The translations under genes were made by a program, and so were the position numbers. DNA of 40,739 bases from a virus. The DNA lies in the IMG/VR virus record IMGVR_UViG_3300033144_005755, positions 1 to 40,739 of that record. One strand, 5' to 3'. Under the pieces are notes generated by a model. That model saw only the letters and a list, made by a program, of their open reading frames with translations. It had not been told where the DNA came from and searched no databases. Shown piece after piece: positions 10,692-40,739 of this stretch (positions are counted from its first letter, which is position 1; each line of letters opens with the position of its first letter).

Positions 10692-11324
10692 TTAGGGGGG
10701 ATCGATGGCGCCGGTCAAAGCCGCCCTTGCCCACGCCCCAATATGCCAGGCGTAAGCTGGCGGAACGCTCTCCACAATCTCCGCTCTGGTCATCCAGTCA
10801 ATACCCATGGCCTCGGAGAATGCCGCTGTGGTGTGCTTATCCTTGCGGTGGCGACACCCACCACCATGAACAGAGACAGCCTTACCCTCCTTCACCATGC
10901 CTCGGTAAGCCGTAGATTTGAGCGCCTGCACATAGAAATTTGTCTCGAACCACCGCTCGCGAATCACCTTCAGCCCATCGAACATGGTTCCGTCCAGTTT
11001 CAGAGTCGTGTTGAGCGGCGACCGTGGGACGTTCTCTATGACATACAGGGGGCCGGAGGCTTTCAGCTTCTCCCGGATCGGGGCAATAAGGTCTGGGTGG
11101 CGGTCCTTGTGCTGCGGCTTTGTCAGGCAAGAGTACCGCTGGCAGGGCGGGGATGCCCAGACCAGATCAAATCGACTGAAGTCAATCTGCATCACATCTG
11201 CCTGGATGAACGGGAACGGGTATCTTGGTTGTGGTTTGATATCCACCCCGACCACATCGAACCCGGCCAGATGAAGGCCCATGGCCGATCCGCCAGCGCA
11301 GCAAAATAAATCGAGAGCTATCAT
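10692..11324 (-). CDS. Compact DNA (cytosine-5) methyltransferase
   Basis: 210 residues with C5-methyltransferase motifs in order: motif I DLFCCAGGSAMG (residues 5-16) for S-adenosylmethionine binding; motif IV ASPPCQ with the catalytic Cys61; motif VI ENVP (97-100); a late AYAWHIGAWARAAL segment equivalent to motif X near the C-terminus. It is much shorter than host enzymes (usually 300 or more), with only about 70 residues where the target-recognition domain should be, so specificity may be loose or depend on a partner. It probably protects phage DNA from host restriction. The gene lies between a cysteine-rich small gene (ATGA overlap at 11321) and the membrane-protein gene, about 28 bases away. 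No cognate restriction enzyme gene is next to it. Confidence 0.88.
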   Translation of the reverse strand: MIALDLFCCAGGSAMGLHLAGFDVVGVDIKPQPRYPFPFIQADVMQIDFSRFDLVWASPPCQRYSCLTKPQHKDRHPDLIAPIREKLKASGPLYVIENVPRSPLNTTLKLDGTMFDGLKVIRERWFETNFYVQALKSTAYRGMVKEGKAVSVHGGGCRHRKDKHTTAAFSEAMGIDWMTRAEIVESVPPAYAWHIGAWARAALTGAIDPP

Positions 11325-11587
11325 TTACCCCTCCTCAGTTCCGCCAGAACCACCTCAGGCCTCGCCGCAAGATGCGCCGGAACCCCCAGCGCCTGTTCCC
11401 CACAAATGGCACACACGCCCATTTCCAAACCCTGGAGGGTCTGGTAATCCCCGAGTTTCGTGAAGCATCCCCCGACGCCGGCATACGGAACGCAGACATG
11501 GAGGCCGCGCAGGATCTTCCGGCAGGTGTGGCACTCGCGGGCTTCCTGGCCGATCAGGGCGCAGTCGGGCGGACATGGGGCGGTCAC
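11321..11587 (-). CDS. Cysteine-rich zinc-binding-type protein
   Basis: 88 residues with three Cys-x2-Cys or similar pairs: CPPDC (residue 5), CHTCRK (19) and CAICGEQ (59), plus isolated Cys between. This is a likely double zinc ribbon. Coupled by ATGA to the methyltransferase downstream and by ATGA to the gene upstream. Function unknown; small zinc-ribbon proteins are unusually frequent in this genome. Confidence 0.65.
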   Translation of the reverse strand: MTAPCPPDCALIGQEARECHTCRKILRGLHVCVPYAGVGGCFTKLGDYQTLQGLEMGVCAICGEQALGVPAHLAARPEVVLAELRRGK

Positions 11588-12036: not shown

Positions 12037-12954
12037 CTAAGCCACCGACAACACAGCATGCGCGTTGCCTCGATTTATCGTGATGGCCGCACTGTCCCCG
12101 TCCAGGCGAAGGTGCATGTGCTTTCTGTTGATGAAGTAGCAGCGCTTCTCCCATGGAACGTCGTAGTCGTCCGCGTCGTCCATATCCCTAAAGTCCGGGT
12201 TCCAGATCACCGGCACACCATAGAAGGTGATTTCACTGTTGCCCGCTTCCATTATGCGCTCCGAGAAACCATGCGCGTTGAGCTGGCCGTAGGTGGTGAG
12301 CAGGAAGTTACGCATGTCGTCGATGAAATGCTTGCCCGCCATAATGAAGTCAGGGCGCCCGCCGTTGCGGATACAGGCCAGCCAGGCGGCATCCATCCTG
12401 GTGATCGTGTCGCCGGTGGTAGCGAGTCCGGTGGCGACATGGTTGCGCCACCACTCATTACCCGCTATAGAGCGGTCGATGCCGCCCACAACTCCAGTGG
12501 CGGGGCTCAAGGAAACCAGGCGCGCCAAGTCCGCCAGGGCGATGGCTTCATTAATATAAATGTGCCTCACGGGGAAGAATCGCGCCTGCTCGGTGGCGTC
12601 GCGCTTGTTATATGTCACCGCCCTGCTGCCGTTGAACCACTGGAAGTTGGTTTGGTAGCGGAAGCGCAACTCCTCAACAAAAGCGCCCCCCTCCCGTGGC
12701 TCTCCCTGCTTGTAGGCATGCCTCAGGGCGGCCATAAATACCCCACCCCCTTCCGGGAAAGGTGTGGGGGTTTGAGGTTTTGGGGTGGTTTCCGCCTGCC
12801 CCCCTGCACCATTAATGAACCCCCTCAGAGTGGACGACAGATCATTACTGCCCAAGCCGCTAAGAAGGACCTCTTTCCACTCATCAAGTGTCATGGTGGC
12901 CGTCATGGTGTACTTGGCCGGTCCTTGGCGTTCCTGCTCAAAACTAACACTCAT
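12037..12954 (-). CDS. Shortened foreign phage capsid-like protein (chimera)
   Basis: 305 residues. Residues 1-60 (MSVSFEQE..., then TMTLDEWKEVLLSGL) resemble small early-region phage proteins: the TL-EW motif recurs at 19645-19881. After a Pro/Thr linker, from about residue 90 on, the sequence reads like a tailed-phage major capsid protein: FRYQTNFQWFNGSRAVTYN, then ARLVSLSPATGVVGGIDR, NEWWRNHV, then DFIMAGKHFIDDMRNFL, then GVPVIWNPDF and a strand-rich C-terminus. The usual N-arm and part of the spine-helix region (between INEAIA and LADLARL) seem missing. The phage's own capsid gene is at 33304 and belongs to a different family. So this is either captured debris or a repurposed capsid protein, expressed in an early leftward operon. 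An 11-base overlap and a normal frame argue that it is translated. Confidence 0.65.
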   Translation of the reverse strand: MSVSFEQERQGPAKYTMTATMTLDEWKEVLLSGLGSNDLSSTLRGFINGAGGQAETTPKPQTPTPFPEGGGVFMAALRHAYKQGEPREGGAFVEELRFRYQTNFQWFNGSRAVTYNKRDATEQARFFPVRHIYINEAIALADLARLVSLSPATGVVGGIDRSIAGNEWWRNHVATGLATTGDTITRMDAAWLACIRNGGRPDFIMAGKHFIDDMRNFLLTTYGQLNAHGFSERIMEAGNSEITFYGVPVIWNPDFRDMDDADDYDVPWEKRCYFINRKHMHLRLDGDSAAITINRGNAHAVLSVA

Positions 12955-13426
12955 TTAGCTCTCCTTCGTTGGTGTTTTCGCGGATGTCCCGCTTCTCCAT
13001 CGCCCGATCATAAAGCCCCTGGTCCCTGTCATCACTCTCGCCATGGACATGGCTATCCAGGCGATGCTCCCACCCATGAAGGATCTCATCCAGGCCGGAG
13101 ACCGCAGAGAGGGCAGCCAAGTAGGCCGGATCGTCCTTGTCGATGAAATGCGTCCTGGAGCTTACCAGAGCCTTACCAAGGATCTCCTGAATGGTCCATA
13201 GATCCTCCCGCCCAAGCTTCCCGGCCTTGGCTCTGCGGTGGAGCTCTTTCAGGAGGTCGGCGTCGGGAATAGACAGCATGCTTAATGGGTAAACTCCGAC
13301 AGCTTCGTGGTCTGGGTGGCGATCCTGGAACTCCTCAACAGCGGCTTTTTCAGACTCTGCTGAAATGGAATAAGGGCAAAGCTTTCCAAAAAAGCTAGCT
13401 CTCCATATGACGACAAATACCCTCAT
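12944..13426 (-). CDS. Hypothetical protein between adaptor-like and capsid-like genes
   Basis: 160 residues; start at 13426 chosen for the ATGA overlap with the adaptor-like stop (a GTG nine bases upstream is possible). N-terminus hydrophobic/basic (MRVFVVIWRASFFGK), then a mixed acidic helical body with SEKAAVEEFQDRHPDHEA and a C-terminal LDEILHGWEHRLDSHVHGE. No domain recognised. Sits between two head-like genes and overlaps the capsid-like start by 11 bases. Confidence 0.6.
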   Translation of the reverse strand: MRVFVVIWRASFFGKLCPYSISAESEKAAVEEFQDRHPDHEAVGVYPLSMLSIPDADLLKELHRRAKAGKLGREDLWTIQEILGKALVSSRTHFIDKDDPAYLAALSAVSGLDEILHGWEHRLDSHVHGESDDRDQGLYDRAMEKRDIRENTNEGELNEC

Positions 13427-14058
13427 AACCCACACCTTCCGGGATAGCCGCGCCTGAGCCGTGCGAGCAGGGCCGTCAACATGTCGGATTCAACCTGAAC
13501 GTCGGGCTGCCGGTAGTGCAGTTTTGCCGATACCAGGGCGTGCTGAAACACAAGGACATCGTCCACCGTGGCCCGGTCCTCGTCCTGGGTGAAGCGGGTG
13601 GGCTTCTGGTAGTATTCGATGCGCAGGGGGTAGACGGCGTTTGGCGGCGGCCTAATTTCTAACCGCTGGCCTCGCTGGTAATTCAACGGTCTGGCTTCTT
13701 CCAATTCTTCAGCTGGCCATTTGTACATATCGGTCACTTCATGTAACCTGATCCAGCCAGCGGCATTGCGCCCACGATGGTAAATAAACACTTCCACGAT
13801 ACGTACCGGCTCGCAGTCGTCGGGATAATCGTAGAGGGTCTGACCGACGACGGTGACGATGTTGTCCTCAGCATTGTCCTCGGTGGTTTTCCGCAGCTCT
13901 TCGAAGTCGTACTGGTAGTACATGCCCTCTTGGGCCGCCTGAAGGAATTTGTTTAAGAGCGTCAGGTTTACGTTGGATGACACCCTGGTTCCGAAGCCAA
14001 GCCTGGCAGAAAGCTCTGTTCGCAGCTCCCTCAGGGTTCGTTTAAGTGGTAGGGCCAT
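13423..14058 (-). CDS. Phage head-tail adaptor-like protein (SU10-adaptor type)
   Basis: 211 residues from the ATG at 14058, which follows AAAAGGAAACC. The order of segments matches phage adaptor proteins related to P22 gp4 / SU10 adaptors: RTLRELRTELSARLGFG, LLNKFLQAAQEGMYYQYDFE, then VGQTLYDYPDDCEPVRIVEV, then YPLRIEYYQKPTRFTQDEDR and ATVDDVLVFQHALVSAKLHY. It appears full length. In other phages it sits in the head operon and joins portal to tail. Here it lies in a leftward early operon, with a capsid-like gene two genes on, while the phage's own connectors lie at 35709-36974. It therefore looks imported from another phage; whether it still works in virions is unknown. Confidence 0.7.
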   Translation of the reverse strand: MALPLKRTLRELRTELSARLGFGTRVSSNVNLTLLNKFLQAAQEGMYYQYDFEELRKTTEDNAEDNIVTVVGQTLYDYPDDCEPVRIVEVFIYHRGRNAAGWIRLHEVTDMYKWPAEELEEARPLNYQRGQRLEIRPPPNAVYPLRIEYYQKPTRFTQDEDRATVDDVLVFQHALVSAKLHYRQPDVQVESDMLTALLARLRRGYPGRCGL

Positions 14059-14060
14059 GG

Positions 14061-14213
14061 TCAAGGTTTCCTTTTCGTGCGGGTTAGATCTAGGGGCGCT
14101 TCTCTCAGCACCATGGGCGTCTTTTTGCGGAGGTAAAGCCACCAAAATACAGCGCATACGGCGCCAACAATAGCTAAGTAGGCTATAAACCCTACGGCTG
14201 CACCACCCATCAT
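14061..14213 (-). CDS. 50-residue single-pass membrane protein
   Basis: Begins MMGG after a GGAGGGCGCC ribosome binding site; the ATG overlaps the upstream stop (ATGATG at 14213-14208). One transmembrane segment, about AAVGFIAYLAIVGAVCAVFWW, then a basic tail (LYLRKKTP...TRTKRKP), so N-out/C-in is expected. Ends two bases before the adaptor-like start. Function unknown. Confidence 0.65.
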   Translation of the reverse strand: MMGGAAVGFIAYLAIVGAVCAVFWWLYLRKKTPMVLREAPLDLTRTKRKP

Positions 14214-14392
14214 GGCGCCCTCCTTGTGATCCCGCAGCGCTGGCACTCTTCTGAGCCTTCAAAGGCCGGTACGCCCCACCCCTCAATCGGCATCCAGTCA
14301 TGCAAGAACCAGCACTTGCGATTGCGCACACTTACCCTCATGCGCTCAAGGCGCTCTTTGAGTGGAGCGGGCTTTTTGATGGCTTTATTCAT
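14210..14392 (-). CDS. DUF1660-like zinc-binding small protein
   Basis: 60 residues with the pattern CWFLHDW (Cys27, His31) and ECQRCGITR (two Cys near the C-terminus), as in small prophage proteins of the DUF1660 type, which probably bind one zinc ion. The N-terminus is basic (MNKAIKKPAPLKERLERMR). Coupled to neighbours by ATGA at both ends. No known function. Confidence 0.65.
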   Translation of the reverse strand: MNKAIKKPAPLKERLERMRVSVRNRKCWFLHDWMPIEGWGVPAFEGSEECQRCGITRRAP

Positions 14393-14931
14393 TTTTTTCC
14401 CTCCAGTGCCTTCTCCATCAGGCAGACAGCTTGATAATACTCGCTTTCTTGTCCGTATTTAGCAGCCACGGCTTTTTTTGCTTCCGGGGAAGGGCCCCAA
14501 AAACACCCGATCTGAAACATGACCCGATCTTCCCATTTGACCGCAAAAATAATACGGCCTTCATTGCCAAGAGGGCCGTATGATCGAATGCCTTTCGCGC
14601 CTTCCATGCGAGCACCTTCCAGGCGAGCGCCTGCCAGGCGAGCGCCTTCCAGGTCAGCGCCTTCCATGCTTGCGCCTACCAGGTTTGCGCCTACCAGGTT
14701 TGCGCCTTCCATGCTTGCGCCTTCCAGGTCAGCGCCTTCCATGCTTGCGCCTACCATGCTTGCGCCTACCAGGTTTGCGCCTACCAGGTTTGCGCCTACC
14801 AGGTCAGCGCCTGCCAGGTCAGCGCCTGCCAGGTCAACGCCTGCTCTGACCGCAGCTTCAAGGCATAACTTGACCGAACCGACTTCGGCCCCAAAAAGAA
14901 CTTCACTTGAAAATGTTTTTATTTCGACCAT
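14389..14931 (-). CDS. Pentapeptide-repeat protein, first gene of leftward block A
   Basis: 180 residues from the ATG at 14931, placed by its GGAGGCGGGC ribosome binding site. Residues 30-114 are 17 near-perfect pentapeptides (AGADL, VGANL, VGASM, EGADL and EGARL types), which fold as a right-handed quadrilateral beta helix. After them come about 65 unique residues (YGPLGNEGRIIFAVKWEDR...) rich in aromatic and charged residues. Pentapeptide proteins include DNA mimics that protect or inhibit gyrase (Qnr, MfpA) and many of unknown role. The consensus A(D/N)LXX is kept, but Met and Arg fill many positions, so gyrase binding cannot be claimed. It is promoter-proximal, divergent from a Cro/YdaS-like gene, and is expected to be an early protein. 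Confidence 0.8.
   Translation of the reverse strand: MVEIKTFSSEVLFGAEVGSVKLCLEAAVRAGVDLAGADLAGADLVGANLVGANLVGASMVGASMEGADLEGASMEGANLVGANLVGASMEGADLEGARLAGARLEGARMEGAKGIRSYGPLGNEGRIIFAVKWEDRVMFQIGCFWGPSPEAKKAVAAKYGQESEYYQAVCLMEKALEGKK
14590..14844 (-). repeat. 15-bp tandem repeats encoding pentapeptides
   Basis: Seventeen in-frame 15-base units (plus-strand form like GCGCCTTCCATGCTT and GCGCCTACCAGGTTT) run through the pentapeptide gene. Neighbouring units are nearly identical at DNA level, including synonymous positions, and pairs such as GCGCCTACCAGGTTT occur in tandem several times. This implies recent unit duplication and copy-number change by slippage, not old divergence. Each gain or loss keeps the frame and changes helix length by one fifth-turn face set. 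Confidence 0.85.
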
Positions 14932-18425: not shown

Positions 18426-18560
18426 ATGCAGAACAAACAGAACACCAAGACTGACATGTTGTGGAATCTGGCCTACGGGCTGGCCATCATCATCGGTGCC
18501 GCCCCCCCCTGCCCCTCTTCTGGAGCACTTCGCTCCTCAACTAGAAAGGAAGAGCAATGA
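18426..18560 (+). CDS. 44-residue small protein before SPFH gene
   Basis: Starts after GAAAAGGAAAAACA and overlaps the SPFH start (ATGA, 18557-18560). The N-terminal half has a short hydrophobic stretch (LWNLAYGLAIIIGAAPP); the rest is Ser/Arg/Glu. A run of eight C (18502-18509) sits in the frame; a one-base change there would alter the C-terminus. Could be a small membrane partner of the SPFH protein, or a coupling ORF. Confidence 0.45.
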   Translation: MQNKQNTKTDMLWNLAYGLAIIIGAAPPCPSSGALRSSTRKEEQ

Positions 18561-19501
18561 ACAACAATCAAACTCATGTCTTTGACGTAGTTCGCCCCCA
18601 CATCACCCTGAAGAAGGCTATGTCTGGCATCCTTGGGCTCATCACTCTCATCACCCTCCTCGGGTGTTTCTACACCGTCCCTGAGGGGCATATCGGCGTT
18701 TTGACCCGCTTCTCCAAGGCAATAGGCCAGGTCGAGCCAGGCCTACACTGGAAGGCCCCGTTCATTGAATCTGTCCTTGAGGTAGATGTAAGGACCCGCA
18801 AGAACCTGGAGAAAATGTCTGTGGCGACGGCGGAACAGATGCCCTCGAACGCCGCCGTGAGTGTAAACTGGAGTGTCCCCGCTGGGGAGGTTTTGGGACT
18901 CTTCAAACAGTACGGGTCCCTCAGTCAATTTGAGGCCAAGATCCTTGACCCTCGGGTCAGGAATGCAGCCAAGGAGGCTGTGGCAAAATACACCGCCGAG
19001 CAGATCATCCGAAACAGGGAGATCGTCGTTGGAGACATGCGGGAATCTCTGATCAAGCACCTTGAGGGATTCGTGGTCACCATTCACAGTGTCCAGCTTG
19101 AGGATATCAAATTCCCCGCGTCGTACACCGGCGCCGTGAATCAGAAACAGATCGCGCTTCAGGACGCCCAAAAAGAAGAGCATAAACTGACCAAACAGAA
19201 GTTCGTGGCTCAACAGAGAGTTCAAACGGCTGAAGCTGAAGCGGCAGCGGAAGTGGCGAGAGCTACGGCGGAAGCTTTTGCGATTGAGGCCAAGGCCAAA
19301 GCTGAAGCGGCTGCTATACGGATGAAGGGACTGGCAGAGGCTGCCGCCATTAAGGCAAAAGCCGCCGCTCTAAAGTCCAACCCTCTGATCATTGAACTGA
19401 CCAAGGCGCAGCAATGGAACGGCACCGTCCCGACCATGATCACCGGTGGAAACACAGGATTCCTGATGCAGGTTCCAGGACTGGTGGGCAGCAAAAAATA
19501 A
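18557..19501 (+). CDS. SPFH-domain (HflC/stomatin/prohibitin-like) membrane protein
   Basis: 314 residues. An N-terminal transmembrane segment (about 22-39, MSGILGLITLITLLGCF) is followed directly by the SPFH domain: TVPEGHIGVLTRFSKAIGQV, PGLHWKAPFIESVLEVDVR, then a long body with VRNAAKEAVAKYTAEQII, TIHSVQLEDIKFP. Then comes an Ala/Glu/Lys-rich coiled coil (about 210-280), as in prohibitins and HflC. It should form large membrane rings. In E. coli HflK/HflC enclose the FtsH protease and change the lysis-lysogeny choice of lambda; a phage copy could compete with host HflKC, organise a membrane patch for replication, or protect a phage protein from FtsH. These are inferences. A hairpin terminator follows at 19587-19631. 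Confidence 0.85.
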   Translation: MNNNQTHVFDVVRPHITLKKAMSGILGLITLITLLGCFYTVPEGHIGVLTRFSKAIGQVEPGLHWKAPFIESVLEVDVRTRKNLEKMSVATAEQMPSNAAVSVNWSVPAGEVLGLFKQYGSLSQFEAKILDPRVRNAAKEAVAKYTAEQIIRNREIVVGDMRESLIKHLEGFVVTIHSVQLEDIKFPASYTGAVNQKQIALQDAQKEEHKLTKQKFVAQQRVQTAEAEAAAEVARATAEAFAIEAKAKAEAAAIRMKGLAEAAAIKAKAAALKSNPLIIELTKAQQWNGTVPTMITGGNTGFLMQVPGLVGSKK

Positions 19502-22204: not shown

Positions 22205-22396
22205 CTGTTTGGCTTTTTTGACCGCCACAAGGAAGTCAGGTGGAGCGCCTGTTTTGTGGGTAAAAAGGCCGCCATACGACGTAGATAGAGCAAAGCAGTC
22301 TGGGCACTGAAGCCAGAACCCATGCATCCAGATAGTTTTGCCGCAGTTTCTGCATTGGCAGACTGGGACTGCCTCTTTTTTCTGTCCTGATGTCAT
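22196..22396 (-). CDS. 66-residue double-CxxC zinc-ribbon protein
   Basis: CQCRNCG (residues 13-19) and CPDCFAL (31-37) form a zinc ribbon, with TIWMHGFWLQ between. The C-terminus is basic (VAVKKAKQNQ). ATGA overlap with the pentapeptide gene upstream (22393-22396). The stop lies inside the right arm of the 19-bp inverted repeat. Function unknown. Confidence 0.7.
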   Translation of the reverse strand: MTSGQKKEAVPVCQCRNCGKTIWMHGFWLQCPDCFALSTSYGGLFTHKTGAPPDFLVAVKKAKQNQ

Positions 22397-22995
22397 GATC
22401 CCCCCTCCACCGCGTTAAGCGCCTTTTCCACAGCTTCGCTCATGGCGTCGAATGATGAATCATCATGGCAGCCTGCGCTATTGTAGCTCCGGGTCGCTTT
22501 GACCGCTTCCAGGAGGAGGGGATGCTCCGCCACCACCTCCTCCAGCAAGTCCACGGCATTGAACTGGCTCTTGAACATTCCTTTGGTCTTGATGTCGTCC
22601 AGCTTCTCTTGGTGGGTCATATTGTGGTCCTCTCCAGATGAATCTCGGCCATCCATAGGGCATGTTCCCCAGTCCTGTGGAAGACCTACGGGGGGGTTCT
22701 TTGGGTCAAAGCGGGCGCTCAACACCTGTTCCCTGGTAAGATTGATAGAGTCAGTGAAATCAACCCCAGATATATCAGCACCTTCAATATCTGTTTCGAG
22801 GAAATCAGCCCCACGGAGATCGGCGCCATGAAAATTACACCCCTGGAACTCTAATCTGAAAAAGTCCGCGTTTTGGAAATCTACATTTTTCCCGGCAGGA
22901 TTGAATTTGAGGGCAGTTATGACCAGCGCCTGTATGTCAGCTTTAGGCTGTCTACTGCCAGGGATGTTTCTGCGGTTACGCTCAGGCCGACTCAT
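22393..22995 (-). CDS. Pentapeptide-repeat protein with fused C-terminal domain, first gene of leftward block B
   Basis: 200 residues; ATG at 22995 after CTGGAGAGCGAACG. Residues about 35-90 carry pentapeptide repeats of the aromatic type (VDFQNADFFRLEFQGCNF, ADLRGADF, ADISGVDF), followed by INLTREQVLSARFDPKNPPV, a known closing motif of such proteins. From about residue 126 a second part begins (MTHQEKLDDIKTKGMF...) with its own Met at 22620 preceded by a GGAGAGG ribosome-binding-type sequence. So it is probably two genes fused in frame or one gene with an internal start. The gene is promoter-proximal and divergent from regulator B, the same arrangement as at 14389-15282. Confidence 0.78.
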   Translation of the reverse strand: MSRPERNRRNIPGSRQPKADIQALVITALKFNPAGKNVDFQNADFFRLEFQGCNFHGADLRGADFLETDIEGADISGVDFTDSINLTREQVLSARFDPKNPPVGLPQDWGTCPMDGRDSSGEDHNMTHQEKLDDIKTKGMFKSQFNAVDLLEEVVAEHPLLLEAVKATRSYNSAGCHDDSSFDAMSEAVEKALNAVEGGS

Positions 22996-26156: not shown

Positions 26157-26368
26157 GTGAGGCTATGGACAAAATCAGAGAAGACCTGAAAAAGGCTTCG
26201 GATCAGTGCGGATTCTTACTCTCCCATAAAGACCCTGTTGTGCGAGGTTTTGCTCTGGGCGTGATGGCAGCTTTGGTCTACCTCAATGGGGAGAGTGGTG
26301 GCGTTTACCCCGACCTCATTTTGGGCGCTGACGGTGAATGGTATGGGACAGATTCCAAAGGAGGGTGA
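26153..26368 (+). CDS. Hypothetical small protein
   Basis: 71 residues from the ATG at 26153 overlapping the previous stop. Helical N-terminus (MDKIREDLKKASDQCGFLLS), then VVRGFALGVMAALVYLNGES, a moderately hydrophobic helix, and a Gly/Asp-rich end. Function unknown. Confidence 0.6.
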   Translation: MSEAMDKIREDLKKASDQCGFLLSHKDPVVRGFALGVMAALVYLNGESGGVYPDLILGADGEWYGTDSKGG

Positions 26369-26369
26369 G

Positions 26370-26699
26370 ATGAAAGAGTTCAAAGTTGGCGACCAGAGAA
26401 GAGATCGCTGCCAAGTCCCTGGGAGAGTAATCAGCGAAGGCCTGAAAAAGAGACGCGAGGTGTGGAACCGGGAAACGTGGATCGTTGCCGGACACCCTGG
26501 GAGAGTAATCAGGTTTGCAGCAGTTCCAAAAGTAGGGATGGAGGGGGTAGTATTCCTCTATGCCCACCTCACCGTGAAGGCCGAAGAGATTAGGGATAAA
26601 ACCCCATGGTGGCAGCACAAGAAGAAGGCGCGGCGGGCAGAAAATTACAAAAGGATCGCCGAGAAGTACAAAGGCCTCTGGACGGTAGAGTGGGCTTAA
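26370..26699 (+). CDS. Basic protein with internal duplication
   Basis: 109 residues from ATG 26370 (AAAGGAGGGTGAG in front). The start MKEFKVGDQ is shared with the gene at 26900 (MRKFKVGDK). The motif PGRVI occurs twice, at residues 17-21 and 43-47, encoded by an exact 18-base repeat 78 bases apart. The C-terminus is very basic (WWQHKKKARRAENYKRIAEK). A nucleic-acid-binding SH3/KOW-like protein is possible. Confidence 0.65.
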   Translation: MKEFKVGDQRRDRCQVPGRVISEGLKKRREVWNRETWIVAGHPGRVIRFAAVPKVGMEGVVFLYAHLTVKAEEIRDKTPWWQHKKKARRAENYKRIAEKYKGLWTVEWA

Positions 26700-26722
26700 T
26701 TTTATAAGGAGGGGATATCAGC

Positions 26723-26890
26723 ATGGGTCAGACGAATAAAAAATGCAACCGGTGCGAGAAGCCCGCGACCCAATACGCCATGCGCGAGAAAGAATGGGTC
26801 TGCGATATCCACATGTGCGACGCATGGAAAGAACGGCGGGAGGCTGAAGAGGCTGCTGTCTTCTTTCCCTCCGCAGATGATTTCAAATAG
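26723..26890 (+). CDS. 55-residue zinc-ribbon microprotein
   Basis: ATG at 26723 follows AAGGAGGGGATATCAGC. CNRCEKPAT and CDIHMCDAW give Cys-x2-Cys and Cys-x2-His-x-Cys ligands for one zinc, then an acidic helix (ERREAEEAAVFF). Resembles small zinc fingers of phage early regions; function unknown. Confidence 0.72.
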   Translation: MGQTNKKCNRCEKPATQYAMREKEWVCDIHMCDAWKERREAEEAAVFFPSADDFK

Positions 26891-26899
26891 GAGGGTTAG

Positions 26900-27190
26900 A
26901 TGAGAAAATTCAAAGTTGGCGACAAAGTGGAATGGACATCCCAGGCGAGGGGGCGCTCAAGGAAAAAGAAAGGAAAAGTGGTTGCTATAGCTCCGCCTGC
27001 CCCAGTGGAATGCTGGGTGATGCCATACCTTCGACATTACAAGCCGAAGGGGTTCAGTCGTGGGCGTGAAATGTTCGACGGCGCCCTCAGGAAAGAGGAA
27101 ACGTATTTGGTTGAGGTCCAGAAGGGCGGTAAAGCCATGCCGATACTCTACGCCCCCCGGACCACCCACCTTCGCCTCGTGTCGCGATAA
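26900..27190 (+). CDS. KOW/SH3-like basic protein
   Basis: 96 residues; ATG at 26900 after GGAGGGTTAG. Opens MRKFKVGDKVEWTSQARGRS then KKKGKVVAIAPPAPVE, the pattern of small hypervariable SH3/tudor barrels common in phages and RNA-binding proteins; ends THLRLVSR. N-terminus paralogous to 26370-26699. Last gene before the late promoter. Confidence 0.7.
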   Translation: MRKFKVGDKVEWTSQARGRSRKKKGKVVAIAPPAPVECWVMPYLRHYKPKGFSRGREMFDGALRKEETYLVEVQKGGKAMPILYAPRTTHLRLVSR

Positions 27191-27218: not shown

Positions 27219-27248
27219 TTGACTTTGTGTGTTGGCCCTGTATACAAT
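27219..27248 (+). promoter_or_regulatory. Strong sigma70-like late promoter
   Basis: TTGACT at 27219-27224 and TATACA at 27241-27246 (16-base spacer), or TACAAT at 27243-27248 (18-base spacer). It is the best consensus match I see in the window and stands after the last early gene and before the terminase genes. Transcription would begin about 27253, exactly where the first stem of the leader RNA begins. Confidence 0.75.
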
Positions 27249-27253
27249 GTCTC

Positions 27254-27480
27254 GACACAGCGAAATGCGGAGCATGACTGGGTGTACGGCCCTGACGGCA
27301 AATCAGACACCGCTGTGTTCCGGGTCACTCCCGGAGTCCACCTCACCTCCCGGTCAAAACTCTCGGAGGTGAGGCGGGACACATTCCTTGGCCTTCCGCC
27401 TCCCCTCCCTCTCCGGGCGGAAGGCTTGTGGCGCCCCCGCACGCCGCCGCAGCCTGTAAAGCTGTCAGGCGGCGGGGGCA
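27254..27480 (+). ncRNA. Structured leader RNA of the late operon, five hairpins
   Basis: No gene with its own start signal occupies 27191-27506. Five stems can be read directly. P1: ACACAGCG 27255-27262 with CGCTGTGT 27311-27318. P2: TCCGGG 27319-27324 with CCCGGA 27330-27335, five-base loop. P3: GTCC-a-CCTCACCTCC 27336-27350 with GGAGGTGAGG-cg-GGAC 27365-27380. P4: GCCTTCCGCC 27391-27400 with GGCGGAAGGC 27416-27425, loop all pyrimidine but its last base. P5: 27433-27445 with GGCGGCGGGGGC 27468-27479, one bulged A. None is followed by a T run, so they are not terminators. The RNA starts at the predicted transcription start and runs into the late genes, which suggests a cis-acting element (antitermination of the put type, stability or translation control). 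A separate small RNA or a packaging site are alternatives. No match to a known family is claimed. Confidence 0.7.
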
Positions 27481-27506
27481 GCCCAATAAAGCAGACAGAG
27501 GAACCC

Positions 27507-27689
27507 ATGCAGTATCCCCGCACCACCGCATTGCATGATTCCATCGCCAAACTGAGGCGTGAAGGCGAAACCGTCAAGAGAATCACCTCCTTTGTCGTCT
27601 GGGGTATCACCCTGACAATCCTCCCTCCTTTAATGTTCTTTGTTGTCAGACAGCCATGTGTTGTCGCGACTATTGGAGCCTGGTTTTGA
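27507..27689 (+). CDS. 60-residue single-pass membrane protein
   Basis: ATG at 27507 after CAGAGGAACCC. A basic N-terminal half (ALHDSIAKLRREGETVKRI) then a hydrophobic segment, about SFVVWGITLTILPPLMFFVV. The same frame is open upstream through the leader RNA, but without a start signal and with odd composition, so the short form is preferred. First gene of the late transcript; unknown function. Confidence 0.65.
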   Translation: MQYPRTTALHDSIAKLRREGETVKRITSFVVWGITLTILPPLMFFVVRQPCVVATIGAWF

Positions 27690-27883: not shown

Positions 27884-28131
27884 GCGAGCCAATGGACGAG
27901 ATGGTCAGGGAGCTTCAGGAGAACCTTCGTTCCCTTGAGTCCTTGAAAGCAAAAACAGAGGAAGCCAGGCTTAAGGCGAGACTAGAGCTATCCAGGATTA
28001 TAAGGGAGTGCTGCGGAGATCCTGATGCGGCGCACGTTTTGGCTGACGTGGCGCTAACATCCCTCCTGAGGGATCTGGGCCTTGGAGATGTCGCTGACGC
28101 CTTCGAGTCAATCGGCAAGTGGTATGCTTGA
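27880..28131 (+). CDS. Helical hypothetical protein before terminase
   Basis: 83 residues, ATGA overlap at 27880. Mostly helical and acidic: MVRELQENLRSLESLKAKTE, then a Leu/Ala-rich second half (HVLADVALTSLLRDLGLGDV). Position just ahead of the terminase small subunit is frequent for small helical proteins in siphophages. No domain recognised. Confidence 0.7.
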   Translation: MSEPMDEMVRELQENLRSLESLKAKTEEARLKARLELSRIIRECCGDPDAAHVLADVALTSLLRDLGLGDVADAFESIGKWYA

Positions 28132-28142
28132 GGCGGGATCTT

Positions 28143-28598
28143 ATGGCTGGCGGTAGGCCGACCAAATATAAAGAGGAATTCGCGGATCAAGCAAGGAAAC
28201 TTTGCCTGCTCGGAATGACCAACGAAAACCTTGCATCATATTTCGAGGTGAGCCCCTCCTCTATTGACATGTGGCTGACAAAACACGATCACTTTTCAAG
28301 TGCCGTAAAAGAAGGGCGCCAACTGGCAGACGCAGATGTTGCCAATTCACTCTTCCGTAGAGCAGTAGGGGCGGTCGTCCCTGAGAATAAGGTTATTTGC
28401 CATGAGGGCATATTTACGACCGTCCCAACCGAGAAGCATTTCCCCCCAGATACAGCGGCTTGTATTATTTGGCTGAAAAACCGTCAGCCCGGCAAGTGGC
28501 GGGAGAAGCCCTCTGATCATGATGGTGACGATGACAAGGTGAAGAGGTTCAACGAGCGCGCAAAAGATCTGAAGGATCAGGCCAATGCTGACGGGTAG
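28143..28598 (+). CDS. terS: Terminase small subunit
   Basis: 151 residues from ATG 28143. N-terminal GRPTKYKEEFADQARKLC is the classical opening of phage terminase small subunits and DNA-binding helix-turn-helix proteins; a recognition helix follows (TNENLASYFEVSPSSIDMWL). The central helices (FSSAVKEGRQLADADVANSL, ACIIWLKNRQPGKWRE) fit the oligomerisation core; the C-terminus is charged. It binds the packaging site and hands DNA to the large subunit, encoded with a 14-base overlap. The packaging site should be nearby; the structured region at 27254-27480 is one candidate. Confidence 0.88.
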   Translation: MAGGRPTKYKEEFADQARKLCLLGMTNENLASYFEVSPSSIDMWLTKHDHFSSAVKEGRQLADADVANSLFRRAVGAVVPENKVICHEGIFTTVPTEKHFPPDTAACIIWLKNRQPGKWREKPSDHDGDDDKVKRFNERAKDLKDQANADG

Positions 28599-29886
28599 GC
28601 TTGCGCCTCTTAGGCCTCACCCTGAGCAACAGCGGCTTATGCGGTCCAATGCCCGCTTCAAGGTTGTTCCTGCTGGTAGGCGATCTGGCAAAACTGAAAT
28701 CGCCAAGCGTATTCTTGTGCGCGAAGGGTTTAATGCGTACCACCCTGACGGATGTAGATTCTTCGCAGCAGCACCCACCAGAGACCAAGCTAAATCGATC
28801 TACTGGGACGACCTAAAAAAGATGGTCCCCCGTGATTTCCTTGACGAGGCGCCCAGGGAATCAACTTTATCTTTGACCCTCCTGAACGGGAACCAGATAC
28901 ACGTTTTAGGCATGGATAAGCCTGAGCGGGTCGAAGGCAGCCCATGGGACGGCGGCGTGCTGGACGAGTACGCCAACATGAAGGCAAAGACATGGGGGGC
29001 GCATGTTCGCCCCGCCCTTGCAGATCGGAATGGGTGGGCAATATTGCTCGGCGTGCCAGAGGGTAGGAATCATTATTTCGACACCTACCAGCGCGCCCAG
29101 ATCACTGAAGACTGGGACACCTTCACATGGCCTTCATCGGATATCCTTCCCGCCGAGGAAGTGGAAAGCGCCCGCCGTGATTTGGATGAGTTGACTTTCC
29201 GCCAAGAGTACATGGCTGATTTCGTCTCTTTCCACGGCGCGGCGTACCACTCTTTTGATCGGAACATCCACCTCGACAAACTGAAATACGACCCCCGCGC
29301 CCCCCTGGTATTCTGCTTCGATTTCAACGTTGCCCCCGGAGTGGCGGCGGTGTGCCAAGAGCAGACCCTGCCCAACAGCCTGGAAGGGACTGGCGTCATT
29401 GGAGAGGTTTGGATTCCCAGGAACAGCAACACCCCCGCCGTTTGCCGGAAGCTGGCATCTGATTGGGGCGATCACCACGGAGAGGTTGTGGTCTATGGTG
29501 ATGCCACAGGCGGCGCCCGGGGAACGGCCAAGGTATCCGGATCTGACTGGGATCTTGTGAGGCAGGTTCTTCATCCAGTATTCGGCGACCGGCTGACGTT
29601 CAAAGTCCCCCGGTCAAACCCCCGAGAACGGCAACGACTCAACGCCATAAACTCCCGGCTGAAGTCCATGAGCGGGGATGTCCGGATGATGATCGACCCG
29701 GTGAAGGCGCCCCATGTCGTGAAGGATATGGAGGGGGTTAAAATTCTCGAAGGATCGGCGGGAGAGATCGACAAAAAGTCCACCCCGGAGCTGACCCACA
29801 TCTCTGACGGCCTTGGCTACTACGTCCAGAAAGAGCACCCATTGCGCGGGCAGAAGCTGAAGCCTGTAAATCATCGGTGGAGTTGA
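28585..29886 (+). CDS. terL: Terminase large subunit
   Basis: 433 residues. ATPase: Walker A GRRSGKT at residues 31-37, Walker B-like GGVLDEY about residue 125. Nuclease: FDFNVAPG about 230 with the metal-binding Asp, GDATGG about 293, and HISDGLGYYV near the C-terminus supplying the last acidic residue. This is the ordinary two-domain packaging motor that translocates DNA into the prohead through the portal encoded next, and cuts it. Length is typical. It starts 14 bases before the small-subunit stop, after AAGGATCAGGCC. Confidence 0.93.
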   Translation: MLTGRLAPLRPHPEQQRLMRSNARFKVVPAGRRSGKTEIAKRILVREGFNAYHPDGCRFFAAAPTRDQAKSIYWDDLKKMVPRDFLDEAPRESTLSLTLLNGNQIHVLGMDKPERVEGSPWDGGVLDEYANMKAKTWGAHVRPALADRNGWAILLGVPEGRNHYFDTYQRAQITEDWDTFTWPSSDILPAEEVESARRDLDELTFRQEYMADFVSFHGAAYHSFDRNIHLDKLKYDPRAPLVFCFDFNVAPGVAAVCQEQTLPNSLEGTGVIGEVWIPRNSNTPAVCRKLASDWGDHHGEVVVYGDATGGARGTAKVSGSDWDLVRQVLHPVFGDRLTFKVPRSNPRERQRLNAINSRLKSMSGDVRMMIDPVKAPHVVKDMEGVKILEGSAGEIDKKSTPELTHISDGLGYYVQKEHPLRGQKLKPVNHRWS

Positions 29887-33303: not shown

Positions 33304-34233
33304 ATGGCACTTACCCTCATTGAAGCCGCAAAACTGGACGATGGCAACATCGTGCGCCAGGCCATCACCGAATTCTATGCGGGGTCGTCTGCGATCCTGG
33401 AAACAATGACCTTCGATAGCATCCCAGGAGGGTCGCTGACCCATAACCAGGAGGGCACCCTCCCTGGGATCGGTTTTCGTGGCTTCAATGAGGCCTACAC
33501 CCCATCGACTGGTGTAATCAACCCTGTGACCGAGGTTCTCTCTATCGCCGGTGGAGAGTTGGACGTGGATCGAGCCATGATTCAAACTCGCGGCGCAGGT
33601 ATTCGGTCAACCCAGGAGCGCATGAAGGCCCGCGCCCTTGGCCTTGCCTGGACGCAGAACTTTATCAAGGGTGATTCTGAGTCTGAGCCCCGAGAGTTCG
33701 ACGGGCTTCAGGTTCGCCTGGTCAATGACCAGCTCGTGGCTGCTGGCTCGACAGCGAACGGAACCGCCCTCTCCCTGGCCGTTCTCGACGAGGCGATTGA
33801 CCAGACCCTTGAGCCGACCCACCTGATCATGAATAAGGCGATGGCTCGGCTGATGAACACGGCATCCAAGACGGCTTCCATCGGCGGCGACATCCAGCGC
33901 ACCATGAACCAATTCGGGCGGCGTGTTCTGTCCTATGACGGCTTGCCGATCCTGACCCTCGACCTGGACAACAACGGCGACTCCATCATTACCGGCACCG
34001 AGGCTGCGAGTTCAGGCAATGCCACCGCAACCTCGATTTACGTCGTTTCTTTCACCGAGAATGGTGTCCAGGGCATCCAGAATGGAAACATGATGGTTGA
34101 TGACCTTGGTATGCTTCAGGCTCAGCCGCAGATGCGCACCCGCATCGAGTGGTTGAGCGGAATCGCTCTTTTCAACGGTCGCGCGGCTACCCGCCTCTGG
34201 ACCATCCTCTCCACCGGCACCGTGACGGCCTAA
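33304..34233 (+). CDS. Major capsid protein (HK97-fold)
   Basis: 309 residues after GGAAAACATGAACC. N-arm MALTLIEAAKLDDGNIVRQA, then FDSIPGGSLTHNQEGTLPGIGF, spine-helix region with GIRSTQERMKARALGLAWTQ, then EPTHLIMNKAMARLMNTASK and a P/A-domain end GIALFNGRAATRLWTI. This pattern is common for small siphophage capsid proteins with a separate scaffold. Length without a delta domain agrees with the separate scaffold gene. It is unrelated at sequence level to the capsid-like chimera at 12037-12954. Confidence 0.88.
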   Translation: MALTLIEAAKLDDGNIVRQAITEFYAGSSAILETMTFDSIPGGSLTHNQEGTLPGIGFRGFNEAYTPSTGVINPVTEVLSIAGGELDVDRAMIQTRGAGIRSTQERMKARALGLAWTQNFIKGDSESEPREFDGLQVRLVNDQLVAAGSTANGTALSLAVLDEAIDQTLEPTHLIMNKAMARLMNTASKTASIGGDIQRTMNQFGRRVLSYDGLPILTLDLDNNGDSIITGTEAASSGNATATSIYVVSFTENGVQGIQNGNMMVDDLGMLQAQPQMRTRIEWLSGIALFNGRAATRLWTILSTGTVTA

Positions 34234-39807: not shown

Positions 39808-40739
39808 GGACGACCACCGCAAACTTTGACACCGCCGCCGCCGCCTCTGGGTCAACGCCTGTATGGCTCATGGAGGTGGACGCCTCAGGGGGGACGGTCT
39901 ATTACGCCGACCGGACCATCAATGACGGCACCAACGCCTATGTTGCCCAGATTCTCTCCTGGACTGGCATGTCTTCCGTTTCGGACCGGATGAGCGGCGG
40001 CGGGATCGCATCCAATACCGTTGTCACCTTCCAAGACGTTGGCACTTCCATTGCCACCAAGCTCCTGATTGACACCGAGGTCCGGATCTACCTCTGGTTC
40101 GAGGGCGCAACCCCAGCCCTGGGCGCGGCGGATCGGCTCCTGATCTATCGTGGAGTCATCTCCGACCCCATCGGCACCACCACGACAACGATCACGGCGA
40201 CGATTGCGCCCATTGAGATCTTTTTCAATTCAGTTGTTGGAAAGAAAATAACCACTGACACCTTTGCGAATGTGAACCGTGACGGAATAGGGGCCATGGC
40301 TCCGGTAATCTACGGGTCAGTTCAGAGGTCCAAGTGCTATCCAATTGATATTGGCGGGCGCACTTCACTTGCCGAAGACATAGACGATTCAGTTACCACG
40401 ATTCCCTTGACAGATGCGTCTGATTTCTCCGCGACTGGGACAGTCCAGATCAATTCAGAGCTTATTGCATATACTGGCAATTCTTCCAATAATCTGACCG
40501 GGGCGACGAGGGGGTCGGGTGGGTCTGATGCTGCTCCCCATACTCGCGGCTCAGGAGTTGCTGAAACACAGGCATCCTATTCCTACCTAATCGCAGGACA
40601 TGCAATCACCAGCGCAAGCGCTGTGTATATTGATGGTGTCCTAATCGATGCCGCTGATTACACTATCATCACCTCAGTAGAAAGCGGATCGGGGCTTGTT
40701 GCTCTAGTAGAATTTGATGTTCTCCCGTCCCTTATCCTG
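39804..40739 (+). CDS. Tail hub / tip protein, N-terminal part (continues at 1-1386)
   Basis: Starts at the ATG at 39804 overlapping the preceding stop and is open to the contig end; codon 275 is base 40626, which equals base 1, so the frame carries on across the join. N-terminal region reads like a tail-tip domain (VWLMEVDASGGTVYYADRTI, ASNTVVTFQDVGTSIATKLL, DRLLIYRGVISDPIGTTTTT). From about base 40240 the composition becomes more AT-rich, with a DDSVTTIPLTDASDFSATG motif like the N-terminus of the long fibre. Full length about 735 residues. Function by position and general similarity. Confidence 0.82.
   Translation, partial: MRTTTANFDTAAAASGSTPVWLMEVDASGGTVYYADRTINDGTNAYVAQILSWTGMSSVSDRMSGGGIASNTVVTFQDVGTSIATKLLIDTEVRIYLWFEGATPALGAADRLLIYRGVISDPIGTTTTTITATIAPIEIFFNSVVGKKITTDTFANVNRDGIGAMAPVIYGSVQRSKCYPIDIGGRTSLAEDIDDSVTTIPLTDASDFSATGTVQINSELIAYTGNSSNNLTGATRGSGGSDAAPHTRGSGVAETQASYSYLIAGHAITSASAVYIDGVLIDAADYTIITSVESGSGLVALVEFDVLPSLIL
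40626..40739. repeat. Terminal overlap, right copy
   Basis: Identical to 1-114. Removing one copy closes the circle and rejoins the hub gene in frame. Confidence 0.95.

Follow-up and report, generated by a model that had tools for sequence, protein, structure and literature searches.

The locus considered here raises the question of what function is served by about 230 bases, densely filled with inverted repeats, that lie between a promoter-like site and the terminase genes of a virus. The window, that is, the whole stretch of DNA analyzed, is the whole virus record IMGVR_UViG_3300033144_005755, with a length of 40,739 bases. The reading favored here, with a probability of roughly 0.42, is that this stretch is the 5′ untranslated RNA of a lambdoid-like late operon. 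It would be the equivalent of the lambda pR′ (6S) leader by position and architecture, would have no terminator, and would act in cis on the late transcript. It is referred to as the leader below.

Bases 1–114 of the record are identical to bases 40626–40739. This exact 114-bp terminal overlap is within a tail-region reading frame, which is open to the record end and onward from the record start. The record is therefore taken as complete and circular, and it probably represents a full phage genome (~40.6 kb) that was assembled as a circle. On this view, the late operon is considered to continue over the record end; it would extend from near 27.5 kb to ~6.15 kb, about 19 kb in total. The early block encodes a P22-type Cro (P22_Cro), a replication-initiation/DnaD-like (O-like) protein, a helicase-loader-like (P-like) protein, SSB, and a Holliday junction resolvase. 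The leader is followed by a membrane-protein-like ORF of 60 aa, then by two small ORFs, and by the genes for the terminase small subunit (TerS), the terminase large subunit (TerL), the portal, and the major capsid protein. This gene order is lambdoid, with the predicted late promoter at the place of lambda pR′. The phrog_11941 gene is located at the position of lambda Q, and it is not a recognized Q. The TerS protein shows at most 51% identity to phage TerS proteins. The coordinates are summarized in Table 1.

Several other genes were observed in the window. Two major-capsid families are present in this single, apparently complete genome. One is of the podovirus type (NF033394, phrog_9953; 12037–12954, − strand) and is inside the early region, and the other (phrog_212; 33304–34233, + strand) is in the late operon. 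An SU10-type adaptor gene (13423–14331, − strand) adjoins the podovirus-type capsid gene. These two genes were possibly acquired from another phage, or the assembly is possibly chimeric. Tandem 15-bp repeats (14597–14842; 5.5 copies, 45-bp unit) were found in a pentapeptide-repeat-like gene on the − strand, and a second gene matching the same families is at 22393–22995. The early block also includes a gene for a prohibitin/SPFH-like membrane protein (phrog_200) at 18557–19501.

Table 1. Positions of the predicted promoter, the leader domains, and the neighboring genes in the window. P is the predicted pair probability.
Feature	Position	Strand	Description
Upstream gene, phrog_11941	26900..27190	+	Unknown function; immediately 5′ of promoter
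Sigma-70-like promoter	27219..27248	+	TTGACT-N18-TACAAT, 10/12 consensus; predicted start ~27255
Leader domain 1	27255..27318	+	−19.8 kcal/mol; 7-bp closing helix ACACAGC/GCTGTGT, P 0.96; weak inner hairpins, 0.27–0.38; starts at predicted +1
Leader domain 2	27319..27335	+	−10.1 kcal/mol; hairpin TCCGGG/CCCGGA, P 0.98
Leader domain 3	27336..27380	+	−26.5 kcal/mol; GTCC/GGAC and 10-bp perfect CCTCACCTCC/GGAGGTGAGG, P 0.95–0.99
Leader domain 4	27390..27426	+	−21.5 kcal/mol; 12-bp GGCCTTCCGCCT/GGGCGGAAGGCT, C-rich 13-nt loop, P 0.94
Leader domain 5	27427..27485	+	−40.3 kcal/mol; long GC-rich hairpin GGC-GCCCCCGC-CGCC-GCAGC / GCTGT-GGCG-GCGGGGGC-GCC, P 0.84–1.00
Shine-Dalgarno-like GAGGAA of first downstream ORF	27498..27503	+	From sequence
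First downstream ORF, 60 aa	27507..27689	+	From sequence; apparently one membrane span; no homologue found
Terminase small subunit (TerS)	28119..28598	+	Likely start ATG 28143; phrog_309, E 7.7e-45
Terminase large subunit (TerL)	28585..29886	+	Pfam Terminase_6N; closest viral relatives 61–62% identical

The promoter had been described in the initial annotation as the best in the window. This description stands for its consensus score and for its being the sole + strand site among the five best, and it fails in that four − strand sites tie with it (spacers 15–19). Promoter-like sites are no commoner in the window than in shuffled sequences, and the start site is therefore inferred. The evidential value of the promoter is its location. 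It is in an AT-rich gap, its end is 6 nt from domain 1, and the predicted +1 is the first base of that domain, with the terminase, portal, and capsid genes downstream. It is likely that the leader is transcribed, with a predicted start at ~27255.

The RNA of 27255–27486 (232 bases) was predicted to fold with −122.3 kcal/mol, compared with a mean of −94.4 for dinucleotide shuffles (sd 5.0, z −5.64), none of which was as stable (0/200). Five consecutive, self-contained exterior domains constitute the predicted fold, while five domains each at least −10 kcal/mol strong were seen in none of 150 shuffles. The pair probability of the main and outer helices is 0.94–1.0; pairing in the interior of the first domain is uncertain. 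Every domain is already formed in the computed fold of the RNA prefix ending with that domain, which would suit co-transcriptional folding. The − strand is a weaker folder against its own shuffles (z −3.88) than the + strand. No T run follows domain 5, and no terminator with a T run was found in the leader. The claim in the initial annotation of at least five stems in about 230 bases, with neither a gene nor a T run, is thus borne out. The first stem had been placed near the predicted transcription start, and domain 1 indeed begins there. The region 27250–27506, for which folding had been proposed, is also significantly structured (z −4.96).

The GC content of the leader reaches 0.71, compared with ~0.5 in the neighbors, and a shift of GC and strand composition is centered on it. 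When the whole window was scanned (160-nt windows, n = 1016), three leader windows ranked 2nd, 6th, and 10th. Some coding windows elsewhere fold as strongly as these; thus, the leader stands out by the run of adjacent windows, not by the strength of a single window. A simple RhoTermPredict-like rule matched no Rho site in the leader, despite the excess of C over G. Rfam gave no gathering-level match in the window (best sub-threshold score 22 bits versus 60), and scans for tRNA and tandem repeats revealed nothing in the leader.

Searches for relatives of the leader were performed by several routes. With blastn, no match was found in phages, and only chance matches of 24–40 nt were found in plasmids. 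Scans of viral contigs with TerL, TerS, the portal, the 60-aa ORF, the upstream gene, and the open frame across the leader recovered no leader homologue. Patterns based on the domain 3 and domain 4 stems yielded 12 stretches, which are partial matches only and were selected by the pattern itself. A covariance model of the leader, built from one sequence and thus prone to miss diverged relatives, found no relative in 69 sources and 12 records, nor in any of 289 alphaproteobacterial genomes (best E 0.23). The upstream regions of the closest TerL relatives match the leader neither by sequence nor by the covariance model. The nearest TerL relatives are mostly without such a structured region, and one of them, ctUtU524 (L067), has a structured gap before TerS without detectable similarity to the leader. 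Among ~65 loci, the structured windows upstream of terminases proved on inspection to be only unrelated hairpins or coding sequence, and in the gaps in L064, L008, and the L065 region the fold is not significant. Since no homologue was found, covariation speaks neither for nor against the predicted fold, which is the main weakness.

In the favored reading, RNA polymerase would start at ~27255, and the emerging RNA is computed to fold, in the 5′-to-3′ direction, as a series of five independent hairpins. This array would act in cis as an element for recognition or loading at the polymerase during elongation. The outcome would be read-through of the ~19-kb late operon, either with an unrecognized phage protein or with none. 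The array may also shield the 5′ end of the RNA, and the start of the first gene would be left no more masked than by chance. The observations in favor are the z of −5.64, the five domains, the + strand bias, the match with +1, the composition shift, the lambdoid order, the lack of coding homology, and the folded late leaders of lambda and HK022. The points against are promoter-like sites not above chance, the lack of a homologue, the scarcity of such a region among the nearest TerL relatives, and lambda comparator coordinates that are presumed. The leader itself has no terminator, and the + strand of the late region contains few convincing ones, so that antitermination seems less necessary. 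The leader is folded in the model and likely transcribed, and may act on the polymerase or on message stability.

A passive role, in which the leader stabilizes the message at its 5′ end or serves as an RNase processing region (5′-end-dependent decay or an RNase III cut) with no effect on the polymerase, is somewhat unlikely. It is consistent with a hairpin that lies right at the 5′ end and with the GC-rich helices, and with the lack of a terminator and of leader-specific Shine-Dalgarno masking, so that neither attenuation nor masking is indicated. One or two hairpins would do for this role, however, and five in 232 nt exceed what known 5′ stabilizers need. Coding offers another explanation. 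The frame 27219–27689 is open for 156 codons and its codon score of −0.04 is the best of the six frames, as would be expected if the leader coded for the N terminus of a longer protein. The score is, however, below those of all tested genes (+0.04 to +0.23) except a 75-aa ORF, and at this GC content two open frames out of six are to be expected. No protein relatives of the frame were found in phages, PHROGs, and IMG/VR, and the next likely start, ATG 27507, already has a good Shine-Dalgarno, with GAGG five bases 5′. This longer protein and a separate small RNA, which would have no terminator to end it, are taken together as quite improbable. The leader is probably untranslated, and the earlier view of a folded leader that runs into the terminase and structural genes is supported. 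In lambdoid phages, lysis genes often occupy this place; by analogy, a holin-like role for the 60-aa ORF is conceivable.

Translation control, also raised in the initial annotation, is not supported in the form of Shine-Dalgarno masking by the leader. The linker UUCCUU (27384–27389) can pair with the Shine-Dalgarno GAGGAA with a probability of 0.72 in a short transcript, and in some longer transcripts partners further downstream take over. The cost of opening the Shine-Dalgarno is not above that in shuffled leaders, 120 of 150 of which are at least as masked. A conditional, attenuator-like switch, in which the 3′ arm of the third domain would pair with the 5′ arm of either that domain or domain 4, is very unlikely. 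The alternative helix of domains 3 and 4 (−24.2 kcal/mol) is reached by only 1.15% of shuffles, and with the first arm blocked it would gain a probability of ~0.59 versus 0.34 for domain 4. Nevertheless, it was chosen after the fact, purine- and pyrimidine-rich arms cross-pair readily, and the free fold gives domain 3 a probability of 0.99. Moreover, domain 4 is no terminator, and a 35-aa upstream ORF (27265) is without a Shine-Dalgarno. A cos or pac site for DNA packaging, in which the inverted repeats would function at the DNA level, is the least probable of the explanations considered. It agrees with the position 660 bases 5′ of TerS and with the good fold of the inverted repeats as single-stranded DNA (z −6.1). 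Against it, the TerS is of the phrog_309 type, as in CUS-3/P22-like phages, which perform headful packaging that begins at a pac located within the TerS gene. The terminal overlap inside a tail-region gene is as expected of a circular or permuted genome, the RNA fold is biased to the + strand, and multi-copy direct repeats are absent.

The initial annotation saw no Q-like antiterminator gene and proposed a cis-acting antitermination RNA akin to put of HK022. The former observation was confirmed for the Q families PF06530 and PF03589 and for the PHROG antitermination families, none of which was found in the record. PF06323 also had no match in the record, which is uninformative because the control matched nowhere either. 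An antiterminator could be encoded by the uncharacterized genes near the promoter, with those at 26286–27190 as candidates, or a Q of a new family could be present. The putL and putR sites of HK022, whose RNA suppresses termination without a phage protein by binding the beta′ zinc-binding domain, were located by their mutual similarity and confirmed by the annotation in relatives. A put covariance model was built from 11 aligned putL/putR sequences; it contains only 8 base pairs and is dominated by sequence. This model had no match in the window at E up to 10, and its best partial score in the leader with the filters off was 1.2 bits. Kinship with put is thus not supported, and the leader appears not to be a put family member as tested. 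HK022 put serves early operons, and it is ~70 nt long with two stem-loops (PMC9378689).

A put-like, protein-independent antitermination RNA is unlikely. It would fit a leader that begins at +1 like putL and heads a long operon, in a complete-looking record without any tested Q family. It is opposed by the lack of a put match, by the leader being three times the length of put, by the late genes of HK022 having Q while put is for early operons, and by the uncharacterized genes near the promoter that could encode an antiterminator. The Q-dependent late leader of lambda also has five hairpins, and so folding alone does not indicate Q-independent antitermination. Of the proposed antitermination RNA, therefore, the part that no tested Q family was found stands, and the support from put and from folding does not. 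That a five-domain cis RNA of ~230 nt alone would drive host RNA polymerase through the whole late operon, replacing Q, is improbable. If true, it would mean RNA-only control of late genes in a temperate-like phage. If the leader works as a late-operon RNA as favored here, a large, GC-rich array of hairpins would have been retained in the position of the pR′ leader. Such an array in a phage without a leader terminator or recognizable Q would make a leader acting alone on the polymerase directly testable. If it is a mere message stabilizer, it belongs to ordinary phage biology.

The closest known counterpart is the lambda pR′ leader (6S RNA), which is presumably 44587–44780. With the same folding tool, this lambda segment is also predicted to form a series of five hairpins, beginning at +2 (z −3.15). 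In both phages, the leader immediately follows a sigma-70-type promoter and separates the early/replication block from the late operon. Both are ~200 nt long with five hairpins in a row from +1/+2, and untranslated ahead of the first late gene. In the lambda leader, the last hairpin and its U run make up the tR′ terminator, whereas no U run or tR′-like intrinsic terminator is seen here. Lambda Q is beside the promoter, whereas no tested Q family is found here and the phrog_11941 gene is present instead. A lambda-type leader is further marked by a Q-binding element and a sigma-dependent promoter-proximal pause. The leader here is longer and more stable with much higher GC, and no sequence similarity to the lambda leader was detected. 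Because the terminator and a recognizable Q are missing, the leader is not assigned to the lambda pR′ leader family; it is most likely of the pR′ kind by its position and hairpin layout.

Like the leader, putL and putR of HK022 are RNAs that fold where a phage transcript begins, and they differ in size, number of stem-loops, and the operons served. The late leader of HK022 is a further parallel. The whole Q-S gap is significantly structured (z −4.24) and is, as here, a non-coding region heading the late operon; it differs in sequence, in the Q gene before it, and in a hairpin with a T run inside. In ctUtU524 (MW202621), whose TerL is 60% identical, a 261-nt structured gap (11180–11440, z −4.0) is directly before TerS, although its GC is 0.45 and the leader model has no match there. 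The leader here is unusual in its lack of a T-run terminator, its higher GC, and its higher stability, while folded late-operon leaders are themselves normal in two lambdoid phages, lambda and HK022.
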